From Desulfobulbaceae bacterium (lineage in GTDB: Bacteria; Desulfobacterota; Desulfobulbia; Desulfobulbales; SURF-16): a DNA stretch of 64,000 nt. Both the position numbers and the translations under genes were made by a program. The notes beneath the pieces are model-generated. The model was not told the DNA's origin and searched no databases. It was given only the letters and a program-made list of their open reading frames with translations. Shown piece by piece: positions 20,474-64,000 of this stretch (positions are counted from its first letter, which is position 1; each line of letters begins with the position of its first letter). The stretch lies in NCBI GenBank assembly GCA_002868945.1, contig PKTX01000006.1:133801-197800 (forward strand). Reading direction: 5' to 3'.

Positions 20474-20818
20474 TTACATCATATCCTTGAGGGGGTTGGC
20501 GTAGAGCAGGATCAGGGAAATTACCAGACCGTAAATGGTCAGAGACTCGATAAGGGCCATACCAAGAATCATGGTAACGGTGATTTTACCGGAGGCCTCG
20601 GGGTTGCGGGCAGTACCAAGACAGGCACCCTCACAGGCGGAACCCATACCAACACCACAACCGAGGGCAGCAAGGCCAACGGAAAGGGCGGCGGCAATAC
20701 ATACCAGAGCCATGTTGGAAACACCACCGGCAGCAGCGGCAGCACCATGCTCGGCAGCCATGGAGCCAGTGGCCATGCCAAGAACCATCAGAGCAGTCAT
20801 AATACTAACTTTTTTCAT
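20474..20818 (-). CDS. atpE: ATP synthase F0 subunit c
   Basis: Proton-translocating ring subunit (114 aa). It is longer than the usual 75-90 residues because it starts with a signal-like leader ([25 protein letters not shown]), as in several deltaproteobacteria. Two hairpin helices follow, with the loop ARNPEA and the ion-binding Glu in [22 protein letters not shown]. Compared with sodium-type rings, the Ser and Tyr around the Glu are present, but the helix-1 Gln is replaced by Met (GVGMG), so proton use is more likely; this is inference. AAGGAGG precedes the ATG. It is the last gene of the operon. Confidence 0.95.
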
Positions 20819-20967
20819 TTTTTCCTCCTTAAGGAAAGTAAATAATATTTTTGGCCTTCTTCCGTTTGGTAAACAACCACATGGTTGTTGAATTTCTAAG
20901 GTAAAAACTCCTGCGTCACTGTTACGCCGTCAAAATTTGTCTTTCTGGTAATCAGCCAAGGAGGCGA

Positions 20968-21705
20968 TTAGTGGGCGTGCTCCAGAGAACCCTTGAAGTA
21001 GATGACGGTGAGCAGCACGAAAACCATGGTCTGGACAAAAGAAACCAGCACACCGAGACAAAGAATGGGCAGCGGGCCGAAGTAGGCACCGGCCAACAGG
21101 AATAAAATGGCCAGCAGGGTCTCTTTCGCCATGATGTTACCGAAAAGACGAATGGAGAGAGAGAGGATGCGGGCCAGATTACTGATGAGCTCAATGGGCA
21201 GCATCAGCGGAATGAGCACCGGCATGGGGCCGGTGAAGTGATTGATGTACTTGACGCCGTGGGTACGCAGGCCCAGATAGTGGTGGTACACCCAGACTAT
21301 CAGGGTACAGCCCAGGGTGATGTTCAGGTTGGATGTCGGCGACATGAAGCCAGGCATCAGCCCCATGAGATTGGCCACCAGGATATAGAGGGCAAAGGTG
21401 GTGATGAGCGGAAAGAGTTTTCTGGCGTGTTCGGCACCCAGGTTTTCGGCGTAGAAATTTTCAATAAAACCGAGAATGGCTTCCCAGAAGTTCTGGCCGG
21501 CACCGGGGATCATTTCCATCTTGCCGACAGTGATTTTGGCAACCACAATGAGAAAGAGCATGACAAAGAAGGTGTAGCTCATGTGTGGCGTGGTGAAGGT
21601 CTCGATGCTGAGGGTGGTGTTCAGCATACCTTCGGGCAGGCCGTGCGGCACGGGCAGGCCCAGCATCTGCAGGATTACGGAAATAAATAGTATCGGATGT
21701 TCCAT
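20968..21705 (-). CDS. atpB: ATP synthase F0 subunit a
   Basis: A 245-residue membrane subunit that forms the ion half-channels beside the c-ring. The conserved SLSIRLFGNIMAKETLLAI helix carries the essential Arg, and NLMGLMPGFMSPTSNLNITL is the usual family block. GAGGAG lies 5 nt before the ATG. It lies between atpI and atpE. The F1 genes and subunit b are not in this window, so the F0 operon is split from F1, a layout seen in several deltaproteobacteria. Confidence 0.95.
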   Translation of the reverse strand: MEHPILFISVILQMLGLPVPHGLPEGMLNTTLSIETFTTPHMSYTFFVMLFLIVVAKITVGKMEMIPGAGQNFWEAILGFIENFYAENLGAEHARKLFPLITTFALYILVANLMGLMPGFMSPTSNLNITLGCTLIVWVYHHYLGLRTHGVKYINHFTGPMPVLIPLMLPIELISNLARILSLSIRLFGNIMAKETLLAILFLLAGAYFGPLPILCLGVLVSFVQTMVFVLLTVIYFKGSLEHAH

Positions 21706-26804: not shown

Positions 26805-27902
26805 CTAGTTCATCCCTAACATGAGGGCGGCGTTGATGCCGCCGAAGCCGGAGTTGCAGGTGAGAAGGGTCGGGGAGAGCAGCTGCTGGGGGCGATTGCT
26901 TAAATGCCCAGGGAAGGCCTCGGCAATCCGCAGACCGACTGTCGGGGGGATTTGCCCGGCTTCCAGGGCCTTGACGGCCAGACACGCCTCCATAACGCCG
27001 GCAGCCCCCAGGCAGTGCCCCATGGCGCCCTTCACCCCGTGTAGCGGCGGTGGCATCTCTCCCCACATGTTGCGCAGGGCTCTGATTTCCATGGTGTCAT
27101 TATAGAGGGTGCCGGTGCCGTGGGCATTGATGGCCCCCACCGCCTCTGCCCCGTTTCGGGTGGCCTGGCGCAGTGCGGCAGTCAGGCCGCTGGCCCGGCG
27201 ACAGGGGGCGGTGATGTGGCCGGCGTCGCAGGCCAGACCCCAGCCGCGGATAGTGGCCCGGTCGGCTCGGCGGTGGCGCGGCACTGTTTCCTGAGCGGCC
27301 AGGAGCATGAGGCCGATACCCTCGCCCAGACAGAGGCCGTCCCTGGTTTTGTCAAAGGGGCGGCAGGGACCGTGGGCCAGGGCCTGCAGTTGGCTAAAAC
27401 CGGCCAGGACAAAACGGCTGAGAATATCAACACCCACCACCAGAACCTGATCGGCCTGATCGGCGGCGATCATCTGGCTGGCTTGGATAAGGGCGACAGT
27501 GCCGGAGGCGCAGGCCGCACTGACCGTGGAACAGGGCAGGACGGCGTCGAGCCTGTGGGCAATCATCTCCGCAACCTGCCAGGCAAATCCGCGGCCTGGG
27601 ATGCGGAAGTCGCTCAGGGGTTCGTCGGCCGCGCCCTTGGTGGTGGCCACCACCAGATGAAGGCGATCGCGGCACCAGGCGCCACGGAAGTGGCTCAGGC
27701 CGAGATCAAGCAGGGTTGCCAGGCGCCTGCCGGTGCCCAGTTCGTTGCCCAGGGCCGCAATGCGGCCCACCTGGCAGTTGAGACCCTCCATCCGCAAAGC
27801 AGTGAGGGCGCTGCCGCCGGCCATGAGCTCCTGCCAGCATTGGTCAAGGTTGCCGGCCGCACAGACGAGAGCGCTGTCCATAATGACAACTTCTCTGCTC
27901 AT
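26805..27902 (-). CDS. Beta-ketoacyl-ACP synthase (FabF-like), lipid cluster
   Basis: A 365-residue condensing enzyme, the last gene of the lipid locus. The full Cys-His-His triad is present: Cys in TVSAACASGTVALIQA, His in INAHGTGTLYND and His in GVKGAMGHCLGAAG. The N-terminal part is shorter than in FabF. Its ATG overlaps the TGA of the preceding gene by 1 nt (TGATG) behind an AGGAG, so it is coupled to the Cys-less ketosynthase-like protein. Such an active/inactive pair is known from type II polyketide systems (KS plus chain-length factor); applying that here is inference. Confidence 0.88.
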   Translation of the reverse strand: MSREVVIMDSALVCAAGNLDQCWQELMAGGSALTALRMEGLNCQVGRIAALGNELGTGRRLATLLDLGLSHFRGAWCRDRLHLVVATTKGAADEPLSDFRIPGRGFAWQVAEMIAHRLDAVLPCSTVSAACASGTVALIQASQMIAADQADQVLVVGVDILSRFVLAGFSQLQALAHGPCRPFDKTRDGLCLGEGIGLMLLAAQETVPRHRRADRATIRGWGLACDAGHITAPCRRASGLTAALRQATRNGAEAVGAINAHGTGTLYNDTMEIRALRNMWGEMPPPLHGVKGAMGHCLGAAGVMEACLAVKALEAGQIPPTVGLRIAEAFPGHLSNRPQQLLSPTLLTCNSGFGGINAALMLGMN

Positions 27903-28711
27903 CACATCATCTCCTGGTGGCGGAACGTCATCGTCACCCGGCCATAGTCGGCCTTGACCTGCCAGCTGCTGGGGAGATCATTGTTCTGCAGGCGGGTCGA
28001 CAGGCTTTCAGCCGCAGCCAGGGGGTGATGGACCTCCTGCCTGAAGGAGGTGCTCTCCGGGCCTGCTATCGTTTGACGCGCCGATCCGGCAGGGATTGTG
28101 ATGCTTTCCCGGCGTTGCAGACGTGCCTCTGCCGGGCATGGTATTTCCTCGATATCTATCTCTTTGAGACGGCAGCTGCCGTGGCGGCCCAGGAGCCAGA
28201 CCACGGCCCCGGCCGGCCAATGGCAGCACTCTTGTGGTTGCATGGCGTGGCGGGCATCCGATAAGAGGGGTGCATAGGTTTCGGCCTGGAGCACCACGGC
28301 ATGATCTATTACCTGGTCCTGCAGGGCCAGCCAGGCACTTTCCAGGGCGCGGAAAAAGGGCCAGGCATAGGAGGTCAGGGTCAGGTTGGGGCCGTATATG
28401 TGATGGCGTCGGGCAATATAACCGCAGACGGCATTGAACACCGAATGGGAGAAGAGGGTGGGCGAAATGGGTTGCTGATGGATGAGGTCGGCAAGCACGG
28501 CAAAGTTGGTGCGCATGGGACCAAAGGCCGTGCCCAGATAGATGCCGGTGCGACCACCATCCAGCTCTCTGATCGGCGCCAGGCAGTGTTCGGCGGCCAT
28601 CACGGCCAGTTGGATGAACTCCTCGGCCCGTCGCAATTCCCCTGCCATGTGGGTGGGGATACGGAGGTAGGTCTGGCGCAGGCTGGTGATGGCCTGGATG
28701 GCAATGCTCAT
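27902..28711 (-). CDS. Ketosynthase-like protein lacking catalytic Cys (chain-length-factor-like)
   Basis: A 269-residue protein resembling the Ketoacyl-synt_2 N-terminal domain of aryl-polyene loci: GIYLGTAFGPMRTN followed by SPTLFSHSVFNAVCGYIARR and HHIYGPNLTLTS. The position of the nucleophilic Cys in true ketosynthases (xACASG) is here TLTSYAWPFF, without Cys, and the C-terminal His motifs are absent. It is therefore probably a non-catalytic partner. It is coupled at both ends, by ATGA to the upstream full ketosynthase and TGATG to the downstream one. The ORF extension to 28810 lies inside the upstream gene and was dropped. Confidence 0.75.
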   Translation of the reverse strand: MSIAIQAITSLRQTYLRIPTHMAGELRRAEEFIQLAVMAAEHCLAPIRELDGGRTGIYLGTAFGPMRTNFAVLADLIHQQPISPTLFSHSVFNAVCGYIARRHHIYGPNLTLTSYAWPFFRALESAWLALQDQVIDHAVVLQAETYAPLLSDARHAMQPQECCHWPAGAVVWLLGRHGSCRLKEIDIEEIPCPAEARLQRRESITIPAGSARQTIAGPESTSFRQEVHHPLAAAESLSTRLQNNDLPSSWQVKADYGRVTMTFRHQEMM

Positions 28712-29922
28712 GAAGCACCCTCCAGAATCAGGGCGGCATTGCCGCCGCCAAAGGCCAGGGAATGGCTGAGGCCAAGACGTCCTGCCAGGGGAACCTCTTC
28801 GCCTTGGCAAAGGGGTTGGACGGGGAGGGCCGGATCCGGCTCATGACAACCGATTGTGCCGAAGGTTGCGCCTTCCTGCAGGGCACGCAGGGTAAGGACC
28901 GCCTCAATGCCACCGGCCGCGCCCAGGGTGTGACCGGTGGCCCCCTTGGTGGAGAGCAGAGGTGTGGTGCTGAAGCCGAGATTTTTCAAGGCGGTGGTCT
29001 CGGCCAGGTCATTGGCCGTGGTGCCGGTGCCATGGCCGTTGATCAGGGCGATGTCGTCCAGGTGCAGGTTAGCACAGCGCAGGGCGCTGCGGATGGCCTG
29101 TTGCAGGCCGCGGCCTTGGGGGTGGGGGGCGGTGGGATGGTAGCCGTCGGCACCGGCGCCATAGCCCAGCAGCCAGCCCTGGGCCTCGGCGCCTCGGCGT
29201 CGCCGGTCCGTCTCTCTTTCCAGCAGGAGGATACCGGCGCCTTCGCCCAGGTTGAGGCCGCGGCGTCCTGTGGCAAAAGGGGTGCAGGGGGCGTCCGAGG
29301 TAAGCATCAGGCCGGCAAAGCCGTGAAAGGCCAGGCGGGAGAGTTCATCGGCGCCGCCGCAGATCACCAGGTCGCAGAGGTCGTGGCGCAGCCAGCTGGC
29401 GGCCAGGCCAATGGCATCGGTACCTGAGGCGCAGGCATTGGTCACCACGCTGGTCGGGCCGCGGCTGCCGAGGATCTCCTGCAGGGCAGTGGCCAGATTT
29501 TCATTGAGGAAGCGGTGTAAGGCCTTTGCCGCCGGCCTTTTACCCTGCTGCCAGGCCAGAAAGTAGTCGTCATCGTGAAAGTGGCAGCGTACCGTGGTGC
29601 CCAGGGCAATGCCCAGGCGTAGATGGGTCAGATCCTCCGCTTTGATGGCGGCCGATGTCAGGGCCTCCAGGCAGGCCTGCAAGGCCAGGAGAAGGGTGCG
29701 GTTGTCGATGTCCGGCGGCCGCCCATGGAAGGGTGAGGACAAAAGAAGGGGAGCCGTACAGGCAAAGACGGGCTGTGGTTCAATGCAGGCAAAGGGCGGC
29801 GCCACAGGGCGGGGGAACTCGTCGTGCCAGAGGTTCCGCCACACCGTGGCCAGATCAGGCCCGGCGGCGCAGCAGCAGCCCATGCCGCTGACGGCAATGG
29901 GGTGTTCAGTGTTCAGCGGCAT
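28708..29922 (-). CDS. Beta-ketoacyl-ACP synthase (FabF/KAS II type), lipid cluster
   Basis: A 404-residue complete ketosynthase. It has N-terminal IAVSGMGCCCAAGPDLATVW, active Cys in VVTNACASGTDAIGL, His in INGHGTGTTAND and LSTKGATGHTLGAAGGIEA. It lies about 120 bp after the acyl carrier protein and is coupled to the Cys-less homologue. Two active condensing enzymes in one locus suggest either two chain-length steps or KS/KS alternation. The substrate is unknown. Confidence 0.9.
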   Translation of the reverse strand: MPLNTEHPIAVSGMGCCCAAGPDLATVWRNLWHDEFPRPVAPPFACIEPQPVFACTAPLLLSSPFHGRPPDIDNRTLLLALQACLEALTSAAIKAEDLTHLRLGIALGTTVRCHFHDDDYFLAWQQGKRPAAKALHRFLNENLATALQEILGSRGPTSVVTNACASGTDAIGLAASWLRHDLCDLVICGGADELSRLAFHGFAGLMLTSDAPCTPFATGRRGLNLGEGAGILLLERETDRRRRGAEAQGWLLGYGAGADGYHPTAPHPQGRGLQQAIRSALRCANLHLDDIALINGHGTGTTANDLAETTALKNLGFSTTPLLSTKGATGHTLGAAGGIEAVLTLRALQEGATFGTIGCHEPDPALPVQPLCQGEEVPLAGRLGLSHSLAFGGGNAALILEGAS

Positions 29923-30044
29923 GGCGGTGTGCTGGGTGAAGGTGCTGATATGCTGAGGGGCTTGACAACAGCGTCACCGCATGGCGCGCAAAGAATGGCC
30001 GGCGGCGTGGCACTGCTCTGCTGGCTGACAGACAACATGGCAGC

Positions 30045-30296
30045 CTAGCCCTGGTGTGCGGCAATATAGTCGGCCAGGGTCTGCACCGAGGTAAAGGCCT
30101 TCTGGCCTTCATTCATATCCTTGATCTGGACGCCGAAATGCTTGTTTACCTGGACCACCAGTTCCACGGCATCCAGGGAGTCGAGGCCCAGCCCGTCACC
30201 AAAAAGGGGTTCGTTGTCATCAATGGCCGCTGCTGTTGTCTGCAGGCGCAGGTCACGGACCAGCAGCTCCTTGATTTCCTCTTTTAAATCACTCAT
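30045..30296 (-). CDS. Acyl carrier protein
   Basis: An 83-residue acidic carrier. The phosphopantetheine Ser is in GLGLDSLDAVELVVQV, and the preceding helix and the acidic helix II are normal. It is dedicated to the locus by position: it starts 2 nt after the LpxL-type acyltransferase and precedes the ketosynthases. The N-terminus MSDLKEEIKELLVRDL and the length are typical of secondary-metabolite ACPs of aryl-polyene type as well as of fatty acid ACPs. Confidence 0.92.
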   Translation of the reverse strand: MSDLKEEIKELLVRDLRLQTTAAAIDDNEPLFGDGLGLDSLDAVELVVQVNKHFGVQIKDMNEGQKAFTSVQTLADYIAAHQG

Positions 30297-30298
30297 TC

Positions 30299-31183
30299 TT
30301 ATTGCTCCCAGATGTCAAAGAAATTGTACCACTGGTACGGATATTCCCGGACATATTTTTCCAAGGCCCGGCTGTAGCGTGCAGCGCAGCGGGCCAATTC
30401 CTCTTGTTTGTCTCCATGGCCGTAATCGGGCTGGAGGATGTCCCACACCTTCAGGACCTGATGGGTTCTATCATGTTTGGCGGAAAAGGCAATAAGCACC
30501 GGGCTGCCGGTGTTGGCCGCCAGGCTGTACGCCGCCACCGGCAGCCGGATGGCAGAGCCGAGAAAGGCGGTCTCCACCGTGGGTCCGCCGGCCGCCCGGT
30601 CGCCCATGATCAGGACAACATCTCCTTGGTTAAGGGCATTGACCGCTTCAATCATGCCGCCCATAAAGCCGTTGACATCAATAATGTTGAAGTCGCGTTT
30701 ACGGCCCAGTTCAAAAAAGTGCTTGCTGACCGCCGTGGTGTCGTGGGCCATCATGATGTAGACACTGCATGGCAGGCTGGCAAGATGGGCCATGGCGGTC
30801 TGCCAGGTGCCGACATGGGCCAGCAGGATCACGGCGCCGCGGCCTGAGTTGACGATGTCCAGCAAGGTGTCGAGCCCCGCAAAGGTGCCGTGCAGGCGGG
30901 CCCGCGGCTTGAGGCCGAGCCAGCTGCGGTCTATGAGCATTTTGCCCATGCCGATCAAGATATGGTAGACGGCCCACCATCTCTGCCACGGCGTCTGGCC
31001 GGGAAAGCGGCGGCTCAGGTAGGGGTGGAGCTGCCGGTGCGGTGTCCTGCTGACGGCGGCATAGACCAGGATCAGCAGGTAGAGAAAGAGATAGGCGGCC
31101 CGCTGCCCCCCCACCAGGATCAGGCCGTAGAAGAAGAGGTGGCCAAGGTGTTCACCCTTATTTTTCAGGATCTGTAATGCCAT
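30299..31183 (-). CDS. LpxL/HtrB-type acyltransferase, lipid cluster
   Basis: A 294-residue membrane-associated acyltransferase of the lysophospholipid/lipid A family. The catalytic HX4D-like region is AVILLAHVGTWQTAM (H, with the usual acidic residue replaced by Gln in this window of residues), followed by NQGDVVLIMGDRAAGGPTVETAFLG. Homologues in aryl-polyene loci have a similar form. The start at ATG 31183 is preferred to a GTG at 31249. It probably transfers the finished acyl chain from the ACP. It is followed 2 nt later by the ACP gene. Confidence 0.85.
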   Translation of the reverse strand: MALQILKNKGEHLGHLFFYGLILVGGQRAAYLFLYLLILVYAAVSRTPHRQLHPYLSRRFPGQTPWQRWWAVYHILIGMGKMLIDRSWLGLKPRARLHGTFAGLDTLLDIVNSGRGAVILLAHVGTWQTAMAHLASLPCSVYIMMAHDTTAVSKHFFELGRKRDFNIIDVNGFMGGMIEAVNALNQGDVVLIMGDRAAGGPTVETAFLGSAIRLPVAAYSLAANTGSPVLIAFSAKHDRTHQVLKVWDILQPDYGHGDKQEELARCAARYSRALEKYVREYPYQWYNFFDIWEQ

Positions 31184-31308
31184 ATTCGTCCAGCTCTTTA
31201 TACCCCACAAAGGCGAACGAAAAAAGAGAGGCCTTCTTTTTTTTGGCACGCCGGGTCCGGCTGCATGGCCGAAAATGGAAAAGGACGCGCTGCCGGTCGG
31301 GCAGGTGC

Positions 31309-32493
31309 CTACTTGTCGCGGCGGGCCTTGGCCGGAATGCGACCGCCTCTCTGGATGGCCAGGGCCACGACATAACTGAGCACGGCCACCAACAGCCCGA
31401 GAAGCGGGCCGACAAGCAGGGAGCCCAGCAGGTATTCCCAGAGGCGATAGCCGAGCTGGTGGACCAGGGTCTCCACGGTGAATTGTTCGAGAAAATGGCC
31501 GAAGCGCAGGTAATAGCCGACCTGAATGGCGATAAAGGGCACCAGGGGCGGCATGCAGAGCTGGCTGGCCGCTATTGCCGCCATTTTATTGAGATGGAGC
31601 CTGTGGCTGGCATAGATGATGGTAATGGTGTGGATACCGATGAGCGGCAAGGTCCCCAGAAAGATGCCGAGCCAGACTGCCGTGGCAATCTGCAGAGGGG
31701 TGGTGTGCTGGCGCAGCAGGCTCTTGAAGAGCCGGATCGGATGGAGCAGCAGGCTGGGGCCCGCCTTTTTCGGGGCGGGCAGCAGTTTTTTGTGGGGCCA
31801 GGGCCAGAGGGCGCGCAGCACCAGAAAGGTGTGCAGCAGGCTGAGGCGGGCATTGTCACGCAGCTGATGAAAGTGACTGATGCGCTGCCCGGCCGGCGGA
31901 TAGTAGACGTCAATATCGCTACTGAGCAGTGGCACATTGCCCCAGGCCAGTCGCACCAGGGATTCGATCTCAAAATCATACCGTCTGGTGCGCACGCCGA
32001 GACGGCGCAGCTCCGCCACCGGATAGAGTCGCATGCCGCTTTGGGTGTCAGGCAGGCTGAGTCCTGTTTCCAGACGCACCCAGAAGTTGGAAAAGGCGCG
32101 GCCAAAGAGGCTGGCAACAGGCACATGGGCGCCGTCCATGCGCCTGTTGCCGATGACCAGGGCCGGCCAGGCGTGTTTGGTCATGGCCAGCAGGCGGTGG
32201 CCGTCGGCAGGATCGTGCTGGTCGTCGGCATCCAGGCTGAGGATGGCCTGGAAGCCATGCGTCTGGGCATAGTCGGCACCGGTGAGGATGGCAGCACCCT
32301 TACCGCGATTTTGTGGAAGGCGTACCACCGGACAGGCCAGCTTGGCGGCGTCCACCGGCGGCTGTGAACCGTCATCCACCACCAGGGTCTGCCAGTTGTC
32401 GGCCAGGGCGGCAGCCACCACCCGGCCCAGGGTGCGGCCATGGTTGTAGGAGGGAATAACCAGCAATACCTGGTCCTGGCGCAGTGCCGCCAT
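31309..32493 (-). CDS. Glycosyltransferase family 2 fused to DUF2062
   Basis: The N-terminal ~230 residues are a GT2 domain of the dolichol-phosphate-mannose type (LLVIPSYNHGRTL, TLVVDDGSQ, QNRGKGAAILTG, LSLDADDQHDP with the metal DxD). The C-terminal ~150 residues are a DUF2062 membrane domain (LQIATAVWLGIFLGTLPLIGIHT, MPPLVPFIAIQVGYYL). It begins 1 nt after the B12 radical SAM gene. Its presence suggests that the product of the locus carries a sugar, or is placed on a lipid-linked sugar. Confidence 0.88.
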   Translation of the reverse strand: MAALRQDQVLLVIPSYNHGRTLGRVVAAALADNWQTLVVDDGSQPPVDAAKLACPVVRLPQNRGKGAAILTGADYAQTHGFQAILSLDADDQHDPADGHRLLAMTKHAWPALVIGNRRMDGAHVPVASLFGRAFSNFWVRLETGLSLPDTQSGMRLYPVAELRRLGVRTRRYDFEIESLVRLAWGNVPLLSSDIDVYYPPAGQRISHFHQLRDNARLSLLHTFLVLRALWPWPHKKLLPAPKKAGPSLLLHPIRLFKSLLRQHTTPLQIATAVWLGIFLGTLPLIGIHTITIIYASHRLHLNKMAAIAASQLCMPPLVPFIAIQVGYYLRFGHFLEQFTVETLVHQLGYRLWEYLLGSLLVGPLLGLLVAVLSYVVALAIQRGGRIPAKARRDK

Positions 32494-32494
32494 G

Positions 32495-33754
32495 TCAGTT
32501 CCTCCAGCTCCTGCTGCTCTCCCTGTCGAGGTGGGAGCGGTAGGTGTTGTCGGCCACCTCCTTGTCGATGACCTGCAGGAAGAGGCGGCTCATGCGCTGG
32601 GCCTGCGGGATGTCACGGTAGAACATCTCCCAGGCATAGTGGTACATCTCCTGCAGTTCAGCCGCGCTCATCTGTTTGGGTTGATAGACCACTTCGGCGG
32701 TGGTGTAGCGCTGCCAGTCGCTATGGAGGATGCGGCCCTCCTGACGCATCTTGGCGGTGGCCGGCGTGTGGGGAAAGGGCGTCAGGATGGAAAATTCCGC
32801 CATGTCCACATCGATTTCCAGGAGAAAATCCACCAGCCTCTTGATGTAATCGACATCCTGATTGTCGGTGCCCAGCAGGACGGCGGCCTCGACGCCGATG
32901 CCGAATTCCTTGAGGCGGCGCACCTTGTGGCGGATATGGTCCGAGGTGTCGAAAATCGCCTGATAAACGTACCAGCAGCCCGCCTCAGCAGCCTTGGCCA
33001 GGACCTCGTCATCGTCCAGGATGGGGTGGCTGATCCACTTCTTCTTTAAGGGGATGAGGGCCTCAAAGAGCTCCAGGAGCCACTCCTTGTCCTGGGCCAG
33101 GGAGTTGTCCACCAGAAAGAGACGGTTGTTGTCAATGGATTGCAACTCTTCGACAACCCGTGCAATGGGGCGAGGCCGGAAGGTACGACCGCCGAGATAA
33201 CCGGTGCAGCAGGGAAAACAGTTGAACTTGCAGCCGCGCGAGGCATGGGCCAGATCCACCATGGGGACGCCGCGATAGACATAACGCTGCCGGTTGAGAA
33301 TGTCGCGGCGGGCCGGGCCCACCGCATCAATGGGCGGATGGTCATGGAGGAAATCATAGCGTCGCTGCAGGCGGCCCTGTTGCCAGTCGGTCAGGGTGCG
33401 GGCCAGGCGGCCGTTTTCCACCTCGCCCAGAAAAACGGCATCCACGGCCGCCTCCACCTCGTCGGCATGCAGCATGGTGGCAATGCCGCCGGCAATCACC
33501 TTGATGCCGCGGGCCCGATAGAGCGCGGCAATCTGCAGGCCCCTGGGGATTTGACAGGTGAGCATCATGGAGATGAGCACCAGGTCGGTGGGCTGGGTGT
33601 GATCAAGGCTGTCGACGTTTTCATCAATAAAGGTAACGTCATATTCGGTCGGAATGGCGGCAGCCAGGCAGACCGGCCCGTGGGGCGGCAGGTGAAATTC
33701 TGTCTGTTCCGGAATCTTCGGCCAGCTGGGATATATCAGGGTGAGTTTGGTCAT
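32495..33754 (-). CDS. B12-binding-type radical SAM protein, lipid cluster
   Basis: A 419-residue protein with an N-terminal Rossmann-like domain resembling the cobalamin-binding domain (LTLIYPSWPKIPEQ, LVLISMMLTCQIPRGLQIA, VIAGGIATMLHADE, DAVFLGEVENG) and a radical SAM core with C-X3-C-X2-C (SRGCKFNCFPCCTGYLGG). The classical B12 DxHxxG is not evident, so cobalamin binding is uncertain. Similar proteins carry out methylation, cyclisation or C-C bond formation on lipids and natural products. It overlaps the half-ketosynthase gene by 4 nt (ATGA). Confidence 0.85.
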   Translation of the reverse strand: MTKLTLIYPSWPKIPEQTEFHLPPHGPVCLAAAIPTEYDVTFIDENVDSLDHTQPTDLVLISMMLTCQIPRGLQIAALYRARGIKVIAGGIATMLHADEVEAAVDAVFLGEVENGRLARTLTDWQQGRLQRRYDFLHDHPPIDAVGPARRDILNRQRYVYRGVPMVDLAHASRGCKFNCFPCCTGYLGGRTFRPRPIARVVEELQSIDNNRLFLVDNSLAQDKEWLLELFEALIPLKKKWISHPILDDDEVLAKAAEAGCWYVYQAIFDTSDHIRHKVRRLKEFGIGVEAAVLLGTDNQDVDYIKRLVDFLLEIDVDMAEFSILTPFPHTPATAKMRQEGRILHSDWQRYTTAEVVYQPKQMSAAELQEMYHYAWEMFYRDIPQAQRMSRLFLQVIDKEVADNTYRSHLDRESSRSWRN

Positions 33755-34257
33755 GAGGTGGGCAGCAGGTGAAAGGAGGCGGTGGGAGCCGCTTGTTGGC
33801 TAGAGGGGACAACGTCAAGCTCGCCGTAGACGATAAGGGCTGCCTTCCCCAGGTGGAGCTGCCAGCGCCGCGCCTCTTGGCGGGCCCGGGCCAGGGGGTC
33901 CTGGTCCAGCAGGGCATAGACCGGGCCGCTGATCCGATAGTGGCCGGCCGCCTCTGCTGCGGCAATATTGGGCAGGGTGTAGCCGAAAAGGGCCGGGCTC
34001 GCAAACTCGATGCCGTCGGCTAAGGTGACGGCATATTCAAGGTCGGTGGCCAGGGAGCCGTAGCGACTGGCAATGATAAGGGCGTTGTCCCGGTCTGGCC
34101 TGATCGTGCCGGTGTCACCCGTCAGGTGGCCAGCCTGGTGCAAGACCCTCCCCACCTCCAGCACGGCCAGCTGGCTGATCAGGTCCATGCGCAGCCAGCG
34201 CTCCGGCAGGGTGACGATGATCTTTTTGTCGTTTTCGTTCAGCGTTAAAGGTTCCAT
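33751..34257 (-). CDS. Half-size ketosynthase-like protein
   Basis: A 168-residue protein. From about residue 55, the text DNALIIASRYGSLATDLEYAV and FASPALFGYTLPNIAAAEAAGHYRISGP follows the pattern of the N-terminal half of a ketosynthase or chain-length factor (RxGxxxTD, then SPxLFxYTLPN, then GxxGPxxxL), but no Cys-His-His residues are present. It is sandwiched between the two radical SAM genes with a 46 bp gap upstream and a 4 nt overlap downstream. It may be a scaffold or an evolutionary remnant. The family identification is by eye and not certain. Confidence 0.6.
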   Translation of the reverse strand: MEPLTLNENDKKIIVTLPERWLRMDLISQLAVLEVGRVLHQAGHLTGDTGTIRPDRDNALIIASRYGSLATDLEYAVTLADGIEFASPALFGYTLPNIAAAEAAGHYRISGPVYALLDQDPLARARQEARRWQLHLGKAALIVYGELDVVPSSQQAAPTASFHLLPTS

Positions 34258-34303
34258 AAGAGGTGGTCGCAGGCAGGGGGCAGGGGCTAGGGGCCGGAGT
34301 CGG

Positions 34304-35338
34304 TCACTTCAGCCAACAGGTGGGATCGGCGGCCAGGTGATCGCCGGTGACCTGGAAGGCGTTGCCCCGACAGCCGTAACAGAAATCGCCGTGGCGGCAT
34401 TGGCCGCACTGGCCCTTGATGGTCTGGCGAATGTTGCGTAACTCCTTGATAACATGGCTGCTGTGCAGGATTTCTGCCAGAGGGGCGTGACGGATGTTGC
34501 CGGTGGCAATAGAGACGCCGGGGCAGGGCTGCACATCGCCGATGGCGGTTATGGTACAGGAGTATTCGTGCCGGGCGCAATGACTGCCGGCCAGGGGGGG
34601 ACGCGGCGTCCAGCTGTGGCCGAATTCCCGGTAGTCAATGGCGGCCAACTCCTCGAAAAGTCTTTTTAAGGCCGCCGGCGCCACTTCCAGGTCGTCATGG
34701 GCCAGGGCGCGGCCCTGGCTGGTCAGCACCTCGAAATAGGGGATGATGTTACGCCTGCGCGCCCAGCGCCAGAGATCCGGCAGTTCCTCATAGTTGTGGC
34801 CACAGATAATGGTCTCAATGCCCAGGGTGTGGTTGTCATCCGGATAACCGGCGGCCTGCAGGGCACTGAGACCTGCGGCGATGGCTTGAAAGGTGCCGGG
34901 CTTGGCGGCCAGGGCGTCCTGGACCTCGGGCCGGCGGCTGTTCATCTTCATGGAGATGGCCACCTGGCGCTGGTAGAGGGCCTCGGCCATGGCAGGGTTA
35001 ATCAGGGTGGCATTGGTGAAGAGATCCACCGCCAGGTGGCGGCTGCGGATATAGTCGATGACAGTGAGCAGATGCGGATAAAGCAGAGGCTCGCCGCCAC
35101 CGAGAATGATGATTTTTTTGGCGCCCAGGTCAGCGGCCTGGTCGATCACCGTGCTGATCTCGCTGAGGCTGAGTTCGTCGGCCAGGGCCTGGCCGGATGA
35201 GGCATAACAGTAGATACAGCGCAGATTGCAGAGCCTGGAGAGCTCCAGTTCCAGAGAGAGCAGACCCTTGTCTGCCTTACAGCGGGCGATTTCCTCGGGG
35301 CTGAATTCCAGGCCCCAGTATTCCTTTGTGCAACCCAT
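34304..35338 (-). CDS. SPASM-domain radical SAM protein, lipid cluster
   Basis: A 344-residue enzyme with the radical SAM motif LSRLCNLRCIYCYASSG, a GGGEPLLYPHL glycine motif and a C-terminal SPASM-type Cys cluster (CARHEYSC, QPCPGVSIATGN, CGQCRHGDFCYGC). SPASM enzymes usually act on peptides but some act on small molecules; no precursor peptide is seen here. A 90 bp gap separates it from the ligase gene. Its role in the locus is probably an oxidative or C-C bond-forming step. Confidence 0.88.
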   Translation of the reverse strand: MGCTKEYWGLEFSPEEIARCKADKGLLSLELELSRLCNLRCIYCYASSGQALADELSLSEISTVIDQAADLGAKKIIILGGGEPLLYPHLLTVIDYIRSRHLAVDLFTNATLINPAMAEALYQRQVAISMKMNSRRPEVQDALAAKPGTFQAIAAGLSALQAAGYPDDNHTLGIETIICGHNYEELPDLWRWARRRNIIPYFEVLTSQGRALAHDDLEVAPAALKRLFEELAAIDYREFGHSWTPRPPLAGSHCARHEYSCTITAIGDVQPCPGVSIATGNIRHAPLAEILHSSHVIKELRNIRQTIKGQCGQCRHGDFCYGCRGNAFQVTGDHLAADPTCWLK

Positions 35339-35427
35339 ATTGTCTTGGTCCCTGGGAGGAAAGAAGTTGAGGGGAGGCTATAAAAACTGCCATCTTCTTA
35401 CTGCCCATCACCTTATTTCTCAATGTC

Positions 35428-36732
35428 TCATTTTCTTTCCGGGCGAAAATCAAAAAACTTTTTGGTTTTATGGCCGCCTGCCATGGTTTTTTCAACCTCT
35501 TCCAAGGCATGTTGTTCCACGGTGAGGCGGACGCGCAGCTGGGCCTGGAGGAGGGCCTCCACCTCTTTCTTGTCCAGGGGCAGGCGACTGCCGATCACCA
35601 CGGTGACCAGATCTGAGAGATCATAGGCGGCCCGCACCTCGATATAGGACGCTTCAATGGCCGGTATCTGCTGCAGGGTCTGGAAGATGACCTCCGGATA
35701 GATGGTGGTGCCCCGCACCTTGAGGCGTTGAGCCAGGCGGCCCTCAATGGGGCCGATACGGGGGGTCTGCCAGCCGCAGGGGCAGGGGGCGCGATGCACC
35801 CTGCTGATATCGCCGGTGCGCAGACGAATCAGCGGAAATCCTTCAACACCCAGCGGCGTTACCACCAGTTCTCCCGGCTCGCCGTCGGCAACCGGTTTGC
35901 CCTGTTCGTCGATAATCTCCACCAGGCTCAGCTCCGGATGGACATGACCGCCTCTGCCCTGCCGGCATTCACTGATACCGGTTTCCAGCTCCGTGGCCCC
36001 GTACGAGACATGGATGGGCGCACCCCAGGCCTCGGTCAACTCCCGGCCCAGGATGGTCAGGGTGAAATCGGGACGGCGAATCGGTTCGCCGATGGTGATA
36101 AGCGATTCAATACCCATCCGGCGCGGCTCATAGCCATGTTCACGGCCCCAATCGGCGATCTGCAGGAGAAAGCTGGGCACGCCGATGAGGCCGGTGGGGC
36201 GCAGCTGCTGGATGAGCTGCCACTGCCGGGCCAGTTGGCCGGCGCCGCTGCGGATGGCGCCGGCGCCGAGTTCCACCAGGCCCGAGTAATAGGCGAGGCC
36301 GGCGATAAAGCAGCGATCCAGGGTGACGCAGACCAGAAAACGGTGGCCGGGGCGTACCCCTGCCCCCCAGAAGGCAATGGCCTCGTTTACGGCCAGTCTG
36401 GTCAGATCGTTGCGGGTGTAGGGTACCTGTACCGGTGTACCGGTGGTGCCGGAGGTCAGGGCAATGTCGACAATATCCTGCTCAACAACGGCCTGGAAGA
36501 GATGTCCGTCATTATTGAGATCCTGGCGCGAGGTCAGGGGCAGATGACGTAAATCCGCCAGGCTGGTGATGTCAGCCGGGCTCATGGCAAGCTTTGTCAG
36601 TTTTTCACGGTAAAAGGCGCCATGCATGGCCTGTTTGATATGGCGGCGCAGCAGGGCGGTCTGCTGCGCGGCAATCTCTGTCTGGTCGGCGCGGCGCCAG
36701 GCCAGGGCCGTATCAAGGGTGTTCTGTTTCAT
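35428..36732 (-). CDS. Phenylacetate-CoA-ligase-like AMP-forming acyl ligase
   Basis: A 434-residue adenylating enzyme of the PaaK type. The P-loop is ALTSGTTGTPVQVPYT; the A5-type motif is SYGATELETGISEC; and the hinge region is LIRLRTGDISRVHRAPCPCGW, ending in MAGGHKTKKFFDF with the C-terminal Lys. It probably activates an aryl or acyl acid for loading on the ACP or CoA. Its ATG overlaps the stop of the acyltransferase gene (TAATG). Confidence 0.88.
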   Translation of the reverse strand: MKQNTLDTALAWRRADQTEIAAQQTALLRRHIKQAMHGAFYREKLTKLAMSPADITSLADLRHLPLTSRQDLNNDGHLFQAVVEQDIVDIALTSGTTGTPVQVPYTRNDLTRLAVNEAIAFWGAGVRPGHRFLVCVTLDRCFIAGLAYYSGLVELGAGAIRSGAGQLARQWQLIQQLRPTGLIGVPSFLLQIADWGREHGYEPRRMGIESLITIGEPIRRPDFTLTILGRELTEAWGAPIHVSYGATELETGISECRQGRGGHVHPELSLVEIIDEQGKPVADGEPGELVVTPLGVEGFPLIRLRTGDISRVHRAPCPCGWQTPRIGPIEGRLAQRLKVRGTTIYPEVIFQTLQQIPAIEASYIEVRAAYDLSDLVTVVIGSRLPLDKKEVEALLQAQLRVRLTVEQHALEEVEKTMAGGHKTKKFFDFRPERK

Positions 36733-37466
36733 TAACGGTGGCGTGCCAGTTCACGGCCGATGGTGCGTCGGCTTTCCTGGCATAATTTTTTAATGGCCCG
36801 GCGTTTGTCCAGCGTGCGGTCAGGCCGGAGGGGTGGCAGCAGGATGACCTGGGGGCGGGCCGGAGACAACAAGCGGCAGCACGGCGCCAGAACCTTGTCT
36901 GTATCAACAAAACAGACCGGCACCACCGGACAGCCCGCCTCATAGGCCAGGCGAAAGGCGCCGCGTTGAAATTCCCCCAGCATACCGTCCCGGGAGCGAT
37001 GTCCCTCCGGCCAGATGATCAGGGAGCAGCCCTCAGCCAGCAATTTGTGGGCCTGGTCGCTGATGGCCTGCCAGCCGCGGCGGGTATCGACATAGTGGGC
37101 CGCCAGCATCATCCAGCGAAAGACGGGAATGTTAAAGGGCCAGGAGGTAAACATGCCATATTCGCTGTCAACCACCCCGAAACAGTAGGGATCAACGGAG
37201 GAGAGGTGGTTGGCCACATAGATAACCGGCCGCGGCAGCGTACCGGCTCGGTCATCGAGCCGCACAGGGGCCATGAAGGGGATGAGGCGGCAGACCGTCC
37301 AGCCATATCTGGTAATACCACGTCGGAAAAAGGTTGCCGATGATTTTCCCGGCCGCATCAGGGTTGTCAGGGAAAAGAGCGGGATGGCCACGGCAAACAG
37401 CAGCGTGACCAGCGCAAAGAGGGGCCAGAAGTAGAGGTTAAGGAGTATTTTTTTTACAGGCCGCAA
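36732..37466 (-). CDS. PlsC-type 1-acylglycerol-phosphate acyltransferase, lipid cluster
   Basis: A 244-residue membrane-anchored acyltransferase, the first gene of the locus. There is an N-terminal hydrophobic segment (LYFWPLFALVTLLFAVAIPLF), the catalytic NHLSSVD (HX4D), and the PEGHRSRDG motif for phosphate binding. The only usable start in frame after the upstream stop is TTG at 37466 with a weak AAGAAG. It probably esterifies the product of the locus to a glycerol phosphate or similar acceptor. Confidence 0.85.
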   Translation of the reverse strand: MRPVKKILLNLYFWPLFALVTLLFAVAIPLFSLTTLMRPGKSSATFFRRGITRYGWTVCRLIPFMAPVRLDDRAGTLPRPVIYVANHLSSVDPYCFGVVDSEYGMFTSWPFNIPVFRWMMLAAHYVDTRRGWQAISDQAHKLLAEGCSLIIWPEGHRSRDGMLGEFQRGAFRLAYEAGCPVVPVCFVDTDKVLAPCCRLLSPARPQVILLPPLRPDRTLDKRRAIKKLCQESRRTIGRELARHR

Positions 37467-56935: not shown

Positions 56936-56948
56936 AAGGGCAGGATTG

Positions 56949-57039
56949 AGAAAACAGAAAACAGAAAACAGAAAACAGGATTCAGAATTCAGAATGCCGG
57001 ATGCAGCAGTCAAGGGAGTTCGATCCATTCTGAATCCTG
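56949..57039. repeat. AGAAAAC simple repeat with a 13 bp inverted repeat
   Basis: Four tandem AGAAAAC units are followed by CAGGATTCAGAAT (56976-56988), repeated inverted as ATTCTGAATCCTG (57027-57039). It lies between convergent genes and may act as a terminator. Related CAGAATTCAG phrases occur at about 42.58, 46.37 and 52.47 kb. Confidence 0.55.
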
Positions 57040-61613: not shown

Positions 61614-62192
61614 TTATTCATGACGACCATCGTCACGAGCTAAATAGCGAACAAGACAGGAATGCAACAAAAGCCAAGTTTTGAAATTTAAGCGTGCTTC
61701 AATATTTGAATGATCAATTAAGCACTGTTTTTCGATTGAATTTATAATTGTTAAATCTATAAAAAAATCATTATCTTCACTGTCCCATCTGGGTATAAAA
61801 ACTCTTTTATAAAATTTATATTTTTTAAAATTACCAAGAATGTCGTCCGGTATATCCTGAGGTATTGGGATAAGAGGTGTAATATGTGTTAAGTGAGGTA
61901 TTTTTAATGAAGAATTTTGTGATAAATCCCTAGCTAAATCACAGGTGTTTCCTAATATAACCCAATAAGAAAATTCTTCATCAATTATTGCTACATCTCC
62001 ATCACTGTCAATATAGACAGGGTCACTTTTTAATGTGATAATGTCGCCTTGGAATAATTCCGCCCCGTCAACATCAGGGACAAAAAAATGATGGAATATT
62101 GATCCATCATTTATTAATTCCTTAATCTGTTTTCCTAATTCATTAAAATCATAAATAGGTGGCCAGCGGCCAAAATTTTCGGCAATATTCAT
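61614..62192 (-). CDS. Unknown protein, third gene of the AT-rich island
   Basis: A 192-residue soluble protein, acidic, with base use much richer in A and T than its neighbours. The segment ELFQGDIITLKSD...VAIIDEEFSYWVILGNTCDLARDL resembles the QGDI...VxxxCDI pattern that I recall from small uncharacterised proteins in accessory regions; this is not a named family. Its ATG overlaps the stop of the middle gene (ATGA), so the two are coupled. Function unknown. Confidence 0.65.
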   Translation of the reverse strand: MNIAENFGRWPPIYDFNELGKQIKELINDGSIFHHFFVPDVDGAELFQGDIITLKSDPVYIDSDGDVAIIDEEFSYWVILGNTCDLARDLSQNSSLKIPHLTHITPLIPIPQDIPDDILGNFKKYKFYKRVFIPRWDSEDNDFFIDLTIINSIEKQCLIDHSNIEARLNFKTWLLLHSCLVRYLARDDGRHE

Positions 62193-62587
62193 GTCCTTCT
62201 GTTGACCATGATTTTTTTTGTTTTGACTGGGATCTGGCTAAAAAACAGGTCAGCTTCTTTTTCAGCCTCATCATCTCCTTCAAGAAAGGCTATTTGATTT
62301 AGAATGTTAAAAGATGCAGCTATGTCATTTGTCGAACCATTAGGTAAAGTAACCGATGTTTCTACATCAGACCAGGTTGGGCTGTCAGATGAATATAACT
62401 TATTGATGATATAACTATCGCTCCCTCCCTTTGTCTCCGGGAGGCACGTGCGTGCCGTTGGTTGAAAAATAGAGCCACTATTGAGCAGAATGGCGCCACA
62501 AACTACCAGTGTTTTAGTCATATCAGAAATGGAGTATTGTGAACTTTGGTTTTGTAAAAAATTGTCATAAAGTTCTGTATTATACAT
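62189..62587 (-). CDS. Unknown protein, second gene of the AT-rich island
   Basis: A 132-residue soluble protein without recognised domains. It has a hydrophobic stretch (MTKTLVVCGAILLNSGSIF) too short and mixed for a sure membrane span, a Ser/Thr-rich middle and a basic C-terminus (KTKKIMVNRRT). Its ATG overlaps the TIGR04255-type gene by 8 bp and its TGA overlaps the next start. AT-rich like its neighbours. Confidence 0.6.
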   Translation of the reverse strand: MYNTELYDNFLQNQSSQYSISDMTKTLVVCGAILLNSGSIFQPTARTCLPETKGGSDSYIINKLYSSDSPTWSDVETSVTLPNGSTNDIAASFNILNQIAFLEGDDEAEKEADLFFSQIPVKTKKIMVNRRT

Positions 62588-63308
62588 TATCGTACTCCGG
62601 ATTAAGTGTTTCTAAAAATTCAGGTCTCAATAAGTCAAAAAAAACCTTTAAAGAAATTTCATGCTGCTTATCTATTAATGTGACCAGTTCTACAAAAGGT
62701 ATGCTGTCTTTAGGCTCTGCAAAAGTGTCAGTATCAATTATAGAGCCAATGTATTGTTTTTCATCTCGCCGTATAGTTGTATTGTTTTGTATGTTAACTC
62801 TAGTTGTCAATTCATCATGTTCAAATATTGTGCTAATTGTTGTTTGCTTAGCAACAAGCGGTTGATCATTTAGTTTAATTGACAACGTTATCTTTTCGAA
62901 AATATCAGTTTCAAAAAAGTCGATATACCTAATTCCTATTCTCTTAAAAGATTTAACAATCCCTGATTTTTCTAGTTGCCGAATAATGTGTTGTAGAAAA
63001 GGATAAAAATTCTCTTTCCAGCCGACATAATCTCCCGAGGTGCCAAGAGAGATTACGCTTGGGCCAACACTTAATCGATAGCCCCCAGAAACTGATTGAT
63101 AGCAGGGGGCAAATTTCAATTGGGGATCATTACGCCTTATTTCTTCTGGAATCTCAGCGATCGGCAACTTTTTGAAATTTGAGAACTCTTCACGAACTAC
63201 ACTGAACAACATGCCCAGTACAGCATCGGGTGGGATTTCACTCTCAAATCGAAATTCCACGACAGCGTCAATTATTGGATCAGGTGTTATTTTTGTCGGC
63301 CTTGGCAT
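62580..63308 (-). CDS. TIGR04255-family protein, first gene of the AT-rich island
   Basis: A 242-residue protein whose N-terminal pattern (PRPTKITPDPIIDAVVEFRFES), middle block (FAPCYQSVSGGYRLSVGPSVISLGTSGDYVGWKENFYPFL) and RIGIRYIDFFE match the sporadically distributed family TIGR04255, of unknown function and often found in accessory DNA. The ATG at 63308 is preferred to the GTG at 63317. A promoter-like TTGCAA-17-TATAAA lies just upstream. It heads a three-gene coupled operon. Confidence 0.75.
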   Translation of the reverse strand: MPRPTKITPDPIIDAVVEFRFESEIPPDAVLGMLFSVVREEFSNFKKLPIAEIPEEIRRNDPQLKFAPCYQSVSGGYRLSVGPSVISLGTSGDYVGWKENFYPFLQHIIRQLEKSGIVKSFKRIGIRYIDFFETDIFEKITLSIKLNDQPLVAKQTTISTIFEHDELTTRVNIQNNTTIRRDEKQYIGSIIDTDTFAEPKDSIPFVELVTLIDKQHEISLKVFFDLLRPEFLETLNPEYDNV

Positions 63309-63322
63309 GAGGTGCACACTTG

Positions 63323-63351
63323 TTTATAGAAATTTTATCGGCATGTTGCAA
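63323..63351 (-). promoter_or_regulatory. Promoter of the AT-rich island operon
   Basis: On the minus strand TTGCAA and TATAAA are separated by 17 nt, 15 bp before the proposed ATG. The very short leader fits the absence of a good Shine-Dalgarno. Confidence 0.5.
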
Positions 63352-64000
63352 CAGAGCTCAAAAGTTAATTTTCGTTACGATACCAAACAATCTAATCATT
63401 GTGAATCGGATTGTGAATGAACATTCAGAGCAAAAGCCATTTCGGGAGAAGTTGTAATATTCCGGGGACATAATATCAATTAGCCGAGTGAGCAATCAAG
63501 AGATAAGGGGGCAGGTTCACTTTTGTCTTTTGTCTGGTTCCATCATGCCGGGTTTGGACATATTCCGGAGACATAATACCAGTTCTTGGCATCCCTTCGG
63601 AAATTGCTGGTTTGACCGGGGTGTATAATCGTGCACGCTACTGCGTAACCAAGAACCTGACAACCTATTTCCTGCTGTTGGTGGTGTTTGTGTGTGTCCT
63701 GCTAAGCAGAACGAAGAAACAGTGCGGCGCGATTGCGACCCATAATGGCCGGTGCCGAAAAAATTCTATAGAGCCCGCAGGGCACCTTATTACAGTTCCC
63801 ATCCAGCCCTGAACTCGTAGTGGCTCGGCAAAGGGATTTGAATTGCACCCCAAGGGCACTTCCGCTGGGCGCAGCATGTCTGAACACCCGCATATTCAAC
63901 GCATCAGCAAACAGTTGTAAATTTGGTTATTGAAATTCCCAAAATGGATCATTGGTCCATTCATTCGGCATACCCATATGAGCCCGGCTGACTTCCGGAA
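63352..64000. other. Non-coding right flank of the AT-rich island with repeat debris
   Basis: No convincing gene. ATATTCCGGGGACATAATATC (about 63458) and ATATTCCGGAGACATAATACC (about 63559) are two copies of a 21 bp direct repeat of a kind often seen beside insertion sequences. CACCCCAAGGGCAC at about 63845 matches a block in the 46.4 and 54.9 kb repeats, and TTATTACAGTTCCCATCCAG (63787) resembles CTATTACGGTTCCCCATTCAG at 61154 on the other side of the island. Confidence 0.45.

Follow-up and report, generated by a model that had tools for sequence, protein, structure and literature searches.

An operon of eleven genes on the minus strand, at positions 26805-37466, was analyzed in a 64,000-nucleotide stretch of a Desulfobulbaceae draft genome (the whole stretch is referred to as the window; G000:C39:133801-197800, from a genome of 3.7 Mb in 83 contigs). 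The operon is real, and it is a collinear, compacted member of a gene cluster family found across phyla. We consider it fairly probable that it specifies a compacted lipid pathway of the aryl-polyene type with radical SAM enzymes. That is, a ligase would prime chain building, two ketosynthase (KS) pairs would extend the chain, radical SAM proteins would tailor it, and the product would be a glycolipid of the inner membrane. Family membership, collinearity, purifying selection, the pattern of gene loss, and co-occurrence with a ketoreductase (KR) are established.

The cluster family and its compact form

The most conserved gene of the operon encodes a B12-fold radical SAM protein, here called B12A (32495-33754). 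This protein is 57-86% identical to proteins of Desulfobulbaceae relatives, Nitrospirota, Geobacteraceae, Omnitrophota, Elusimicrobiota, Acidobacteriota, Planctomycetota, and others, with identities of 71-75% in Desulfobulbaceae-type loci and 57-65% across phyla; a few assignments of metagenome-assembled genomes may be wrong, for example that of locus L114, whose B12A is nearly identical to that of the Omnitrophota locus L112. The cluster that recurs around B12A consists of an ApeR-like KS, a CrtI-like oxidoreductase, an acyl carrier protein (ACP), a PlsC-type acyltransferase, a ligase, a SPASM radical SAM protein, a ketosynthase (KS3), a half ketosynthase (half-KS), B12A, a ladderane-family radical SAM protein (TIGR04072), a GT2 glycosyltransferase, an LpxL-type acyltransferase, an ACP, a ketosynthase (KS1), a Cys-less KS resembling chain length factors (CLF), KR, ApeP, LolA, MMPL, DUF3261, ApeI, and a thioesterase, in an order that varies by lineage. 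Full clusters span 20-28 kb and represent an aryl-polyene-type lipid pathway supplemented with radical SAM enzymes and a CrtI-like desaturase. An earlier interpretation made without database searches (the sequence-only reading) had seen no close match among named pathways. This view has to be given up: larger collinear clusters are widespread, in Desulfobulbaceae relatives as well as in other phyla, and, judged by gene content, the loci described in Desulfotalea and Kuenenia belong to this type too. Larger loci of the family are also carried by the culturable relatives Halodesulfovibrio (L101) and Desulfuromusa kysingii (L097).

Full radical-SAM aryl-polyene-like clusters are exemplified by G068 (L031 and L159), G004 (L029), L053, L061, and L115. 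In G068, a genus-mate, each of the eleven genes of the operon has a counterpart, and the order is the same. The full locus of this genome reads ApeR-CrtI-ApeR-PlsC-ligase-SPASM-half-KS-B12A-TIGR04072-GT2-LpxL-ACP-KS1-CLF-KR-ApeP-LolA-MMPL-ApeI-thioesterase-KS3-radical SAM. If TIGR04072, the segment from KR to the thioesterase, the ApeR-CrtI-ApeR genes at the 5' end, and the tail at the 3' end are taken out, what is left is the exact gene order of the operon, with KS3, which follows the thioesterase in full loci, right after CLF. Compared with the full clusters, the window form lacks TIGR04072, the CrtI-like gene, two ApeR-like KS, the second ACP, KR, ApeP, ApeI, the thioesterase, LolA, MMPL, and a further radical SAM gene.

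The TIGR04072 gene lies directly downstream of B12A in 69 of 83 relatives. In a tree of B12A, the compact clade is nested (support 100/98) among loci with an adjacent TIGR04072 gene, and loss of this gene is therefore the simplest reading. It is also missing from its adjacent position in other lineages (L034-L040, three Acidobacteria, L100, and L126). Loci L034-L040, from families f11 and f12 of the order, form a second locus type, with B12A at 56-61% identity, in which a radical-SAM-sized gene of ~455-470 amino acids replaces the adjacent TIGR04072. Two Acidobacteriota loci (L090 and L109) carry B12A homologues with no other cluster genes within 10 kb flanks, and B12A may therefore have a use outside the cluster. 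An ammonia-lyase that had been guessed in full loci from protein length was discarded, the 500-residue protein being the CrtI-like oxidoreductase.

The compact form recurs. The identical eleven-gene order is found in G094 (L047), in G105 (L048), and, over two contigs, in G109 (L060 and L140), so that with the window genome (G000) there are four compact-form genomes, all of one family. All four copies occupy one chromosomal site, next to the same aminotransferase gene. The dN/dS ratio is 0.05-0.42 for every gene, in two comparisons (with L047 and with L048); all eleven genes are under purifying selection, and the recurrence of their order is more than chance.

The fate of the missing genes was followed in a survey of 22 genomes of the family, with E thresholds of 1e-30 for CrtI, 1e-6 for the ApeP-type dehydratase, and 1e-30 for the MMPL exporter; these are draft genomes, 84-99.99% complete, and absence is judged at these thresholds. 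Locus-type CrtI, ApeP-type dehydratase, and MMPL exporter are all present in four of four full-type genomes (G068, G085, G035, and G050), and none was found in the four compact genomes. G080, G097, G016, and G057, which carry a different and more distant locus, gave MMPL matches of just 26-27%; a weak dehydratase match was also seen in G097. Given the genome-wide loss of the MMPL exporter, the product probably remains in the inner membrane. ApeI is not in the operon, and the genome-wide dehydratase search covered the ApeP type. No LolA gene is found in the operon either.

The ketoreductase has a different fate. An orthologue of the full-locus KR, 59-66% identical, occurs unlinked in G000 (66%, on contig C74 at 20708-21421), G094, and G109, and is linked in full-type genomes. 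Overall, it is present in seven of eight genomes with a type I locus, a count that includes a contig-edge copy in G085, and in 0 of the 14 genomes that lack this locus (p=5e-5 by Fisher's test, with no correction for phylogeny). Because the KR orthologue follows the type I locus, these data suggest that the pathway has retained its keto-reduction step. The sequence-only reading had listed KR, dehydratases, LolA, and MMPL as missing; this is so within the operon, but the KR is kept on another contig.

Gene functions and a possible pathway

All eleven frames are open, and their places, order, and strand are as first described, from the PlsC-type gene to KS3; profile matches likewise agree with the earlier family assignments. 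Four junctions overlap (PlsC/ligase by 1 base, half-KS/B12A by 4, KS1/CLF by 4, and CLF/KS3 by 1). The earlier description of the operon as almost gap-free fits these junctions, but not the gaps of 46, 59, 89, and 122 bases found elsewhere; the other gaps are of 1 and 2 bases. Two starts were corrected, that of CLF to ~28711 (not 28810) and that of KS3 to ~27902. A promoter/terminator scan gave 8 sites versus 3.4 expected and 14 versus 9.0, none of them decisive on co-transcription.

The first gene (36732-37466) encodes a PlsC-type 1-acylglycerol-phosphate acyltransferase (PF01553, 75.7 bits) with the motif NHLSSVD (NHxxxxD) and 26% identity to ApeD (E=2e-7). It is followed by an FlxY-like acyl/aryl-acid ligase (35428-36732), a relative of 4-coumarate-CoA ligase with the motifs TSGTTGTP (P-loop) and YGATE, which matches the FlxY model NF053551 over its full length with 389 bits, below the cut-off of 520. 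Next is a radical SAM/SPASM protein (34304-35338; PF04055 and PF13186) with CNLRCIYC and a C-terminal Cys set; CxxxCxxC is retained in both radical SAM proteins of the operon. Downstream of the half-KS (33751-34257) and B12A lie a GT2 glycosyltransferase with a C-terminal DUF2062 (31309-32493; PF00535 and PF09835), 37% identical to the N-terminal half of ApeJ (E=7e-35), and an LpxL-type acyltransferase (30299-31249; PF03279), 24% identical to its C-terminal half. That is, these two genes are the halves of ApeJ, split, and the earlier proposal that the product is glycosylated is plausible in this light.

The ACP (30045-30296; DSL) scores 72.4 bits against NF006617 (cut-off 70) and is 46% identical to ApeE. 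KS1 (28708-29922; PF00109 and PF02801) is 35% identical to ApeO, and KS3 (26805-27902; PF00109 and PF02801) is 50% identical to the product of L159:5817-6884. Both retain the Cys-His-Lys-His set, as Cys164, His297, and Lys326/His331 in KS1 and Cys131, His261, and Lys291/His296 in KS3. Between them, CLF (27902-28711; PF13723, 37.5 bits) is Cys-less and truncated at its C terminus, with a weak sequence match to ApeC (6qsp_B, E=0.15), and is the probable partner of KS1. In CLF, as in the half-KS, the Cys and the C-terminal lobe are missing. The AlphaFold2 model of the half-KS (pLDDT 95), a Cys-less N-terminal lobe of the KS/CLF fold, was matched by Foldseek to N-terminal KS halves, including a free-standing chain of 198 residues (7f28_C) and ApeC, the aryl-polyene chain length factor. 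In most relatives outside the Desulfobulbaceae, the half-KS directly follows KS3. On the basis of gene order, truncation, and fold, we predict that each KS has a truncated partner, giving the pairs KS1:CLF and KS3:half-KS.

B12A is not a TIGR04072 protein (36 bits, cut-off 360). Its model (pLDDT 90) has AprD4, a radical SAM diol dehydratase, as the closest solved fold (6fd2), followed by cobalamin-dependent methylases; its score for the Pfam B12-binding domain does not reach the cut-off.

Taken together, these assignments point to a possible order of events. The FlxY-like ligase would activate a starter acid for transfer to the operon's own ACP. Malonyl units would then be condensed by two enzyme pairs that act like ApeO:ApeC, one made up of KS1 and CLF (Cys-less and truncated), the other of KS3 and the half-KS. 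The unlinked, dedicated KR could reduce the beta-keto groups, and any dehydration would fall to the housekeeping FabZ. The AprD4-fold and SPASM radical SAM proteins may modify the chain, or its sugar, anaerobically. Judging by homology, the GT2-DUF2062 protein and the LpxL-type protein (the split ApeJ), together with the PlsC-type protein, would join sugar and acyl groups on an inner-membrane lipid, and the product would stay in the inner membrane.

The neighbors of the operon are ordinary: an LptF/LptG-like permease, an HDOD protein, and an aminotransferase downstream, and a PEP-utilising enzyme and GAPDH upstream. A search of the window for RNA families and tRNAs found none. At the contig end, window positions 62001-64000 have a G+C content of 0.40, versus 0.52-0.65 in the rest of the window, and may be an acquired stretch; at 56941-56994 there is a short tandem repeat with a 7-base unit (AGAAAAC) in 4.3 copies.

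Alternative explanations

Several observations weigh against a compacted, radical SAM-tailored glycolipid pathway. No product is known for any cluster of this radical SAM family. The ligase scores under the FlxY cut-off, and the genome has no match to the aromatic ammonia-lyase family PF00221. Acyl transfer by the LpxL-type protein is uncertain, because HX4Q replaces the HX4E of ApeJ and LpxL, which includes the catalytic acid; this replacement extends to nearly the whole locus family (the window and about 55 loci). The KR orthologue was not found in the compact genome G105. Lastly, the B12A tree places the full copy of G068 and the compact clade on separate branches, and transfer or old duplication is therefore involved. 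An origin of the compact locus in place from the full copy of G068 is not supported, given the different B12A branches and the lack of common neighbors in the fetched flanks; the history in this genus is not one of simple in-place deletion.

An actual aryl-polyene or flexirubin-type pigment, that is, an aryl starter extended to a conjugated polyene with dehydration by the housekeeping FabZ, seems to us unlikely. The ACP, the KS/CLF pair, the ApeJ-like pair, and the ApeD-like acyltransferase do match the E. coli aryl-polyene cluster, the ligase resembles FlxY, and a KR orthologue is retained in trans. However, neither the ApeP-type dehydratase nor the MMPL exporter was found anywhere in the genome at the thresholds applied, the ligase does not resemble ApeH, and the E. 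coli cluster has nothing that corresponds to the two radical SAM proteins. Without an aromatic ammonia-lyase in the genome, a coumarate starter made via this enzyme is also unlikely. A decaying, functionless remnant of a full locus would account for the many genes that are gone, but we consider it the least credible of the alternatives: eleven intact frames stand in the same order in four genomes, all under purifying selection and with catalytic motifs retained, and the dedicated KR is kept in trans.

Two further proposals derive from work on Desulfotalea and Kuenenia, and we judge both to be very improbable, to the same degree. The sequence-only reading had pointed to a report of ladderane-like genes in a Desulfobulbaceae member; this report exists (Rattray et al. 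2009, PMC2649909), concerns loci of this kind in Desulfotalea psychrophila and Kuenenia, and proposes an anaerobic route to polyunsaturated fatty acids. Synthesis of ladderane-like or otherwise cyclised fatty acids could be argued from the TIGR04072 and CrtI-like genes of the full relatives, as in Kuenenia, and from a TIGR04072 paralogue elsewhere in the window genome. The operon itself, however, has neither gene; D. psychrophila extracts gave no ladderanes (PMC2649909); and candidate genes of Kuenenia, expressed in a heterologous host, led to no new fatty acids, although many of the proteins were insoluble (PMC4790861). The fold of B12A is closest to AprD4, a deoxygenating enzyme and not a cyclase, and the cyclised product once suggested for the operon is thus not borne out. 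Rattray et al. did find the polyunsaturated hydrocarbons C31:8 and C31:9 in D. psychrophila, and the idea of Rattray et al. for the Desulfotalea locus would have the operon supply polyunsaturated chains for C31 hydrocarbons. D. psychrophila has loci of this kind, and the window genome encodes OleA. Yet the presence of OleA shows no tie to the window-type locus (15/25 genomes with the locus vs. 85/121 without), the CrtI-like and dehydratase genes are lost, and a better candidate exists on contig C8, where a KS, two CrtI-like genes, KR, and FabA-like and FabI-like genes are joined directly to OleA.

A compacted, radical SAM-tailored glycolipid pathway thus remains our preferred explanation. On a broader scale, we propose tentatively, at somewhat less than even chance, that the cluster family makes a new anaerobic polyketide-type glycolipid, with radical SAM tailoring of the ACP-bound chain, and that the operon with an unlinked KR from elsewhere in the genome is its minimal working set, twelve genes in all, with the product in the inner membrane. 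For expression or deletion work, the compact locus, at ~11 kb plus one ketoreductase, offers a much smaller target than the loci of 20-28 kb. It also distinguishes the genes that are always kept (those for the ligase, the ACP, GT2, the acyltransferases, both radical SAM proteins, and both KS pairs) from dispensable ones, such as those for TIGR04072, CrtI, and export, which narrows the chemistry that belongs to the core product.

Comparison with known lipid clusters

Compared with the apeA-R cluster of E. coli CFT073, whose gene functions are taken from PMC8253772, the operon shares the ACP, the KS/CLF pair with a truncated CLF, the GT2-LpxL pair (ApeJ), and the ApeD-type acyltransferase, and the aryl-polyene resemblance seen in the sequence-only reading is supported by these matches. 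The larger relatives also match ApeR, ApeP, ApeI, ApeK, ApeL, ApeM, and ApeN. The operon differs in lacking an ApeH-type synthetase (its ligase has no match to ApeH at E 0.01), ApeP, ApeI, and ApeK-N, and it has instead the FlxY-like ligase, two radical SAM proteins, and an additional pair of KS and half-KS. A ketoreductase (ApeQ) is likewise not in the operon, but an orthologue of the full-locus KR lies on contig C74. With the flexirubin (flx) cluster of Chitinophaga it shares this ligase, and LolA-/LolB-like proteins of the full relatives match flexirubin models; the differences are the missing tyrosine ammonia-lyase and the sub-threshold ligase score (389 vs. 520). In the part of PMC3992019 used here, FlxY is a 4-coumarate ligase (4-coumarate-CoA), and radical SAM proteins are not among the flx genes described.

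By gene content, the full clusters match the 'ladderane-like' locus of Desulfotalea (Rattray et al. 2009). Clusters so named have been detected, and are expressed, in many non-anammox phyla, with function unknown (PMC9902471). As in Kuenenia-type loci, a Cys-less non-canonical FabF, radical SAM, phenylacetate-CoA-ligase-like, and glycosyltransferase genes occur together in the window, but the operon has no TIGR04072 protein and no phytoene-desaturase-like oxidoreductase; the link to Kuenenia is drawn from TIGR04072 ('rSAM_ladder_B12', 607 bits in L029) and published gene lists.

Two other lipid loci of the window genome bear on this comparison. Locus L155 (G000:C8, 1031-10984) comprises a KS, two CrtI-like FAD oxidoreductases, KR, a FabA-like dehydratase, a FabI-like enoyl reductase, OleA (436 bits), and an alpha/beta hydrolase, OleB-like by position, with two small non-lipid reading frames (23S IVP and PDDEXK_3) interspersed; it resembles the pathway to Ole-type polyunsaturated hydrocarbons that Rattray et al. 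had looked for. Locus L021 (G000:C7, 236-16467) encodes an ACP, a thioesterase, GT2, KS, CLF, the sole TIGR04072 member of the genome (372 bits, cut-off 360), two methyltransferases, SPASM, further B12-type radical SAM proteins (one BchE-like, 244 bits), a small membrane protein, a LolA-like protein, a KS didomain, and a CrtI-like protein. Distant CrtI paralogues thus occur at C7 and C8, and loci of the L021 type are also found in G094 (L147) and G109 (L148 and L149). The genes of L021 are distant paralogues of those in the operon (B12A 31%, KS1 40%), with the two methyltransferases and the membrane protein added, and in gene content L021 is nearer than the operon to Kuenenia kuste3335-3352.

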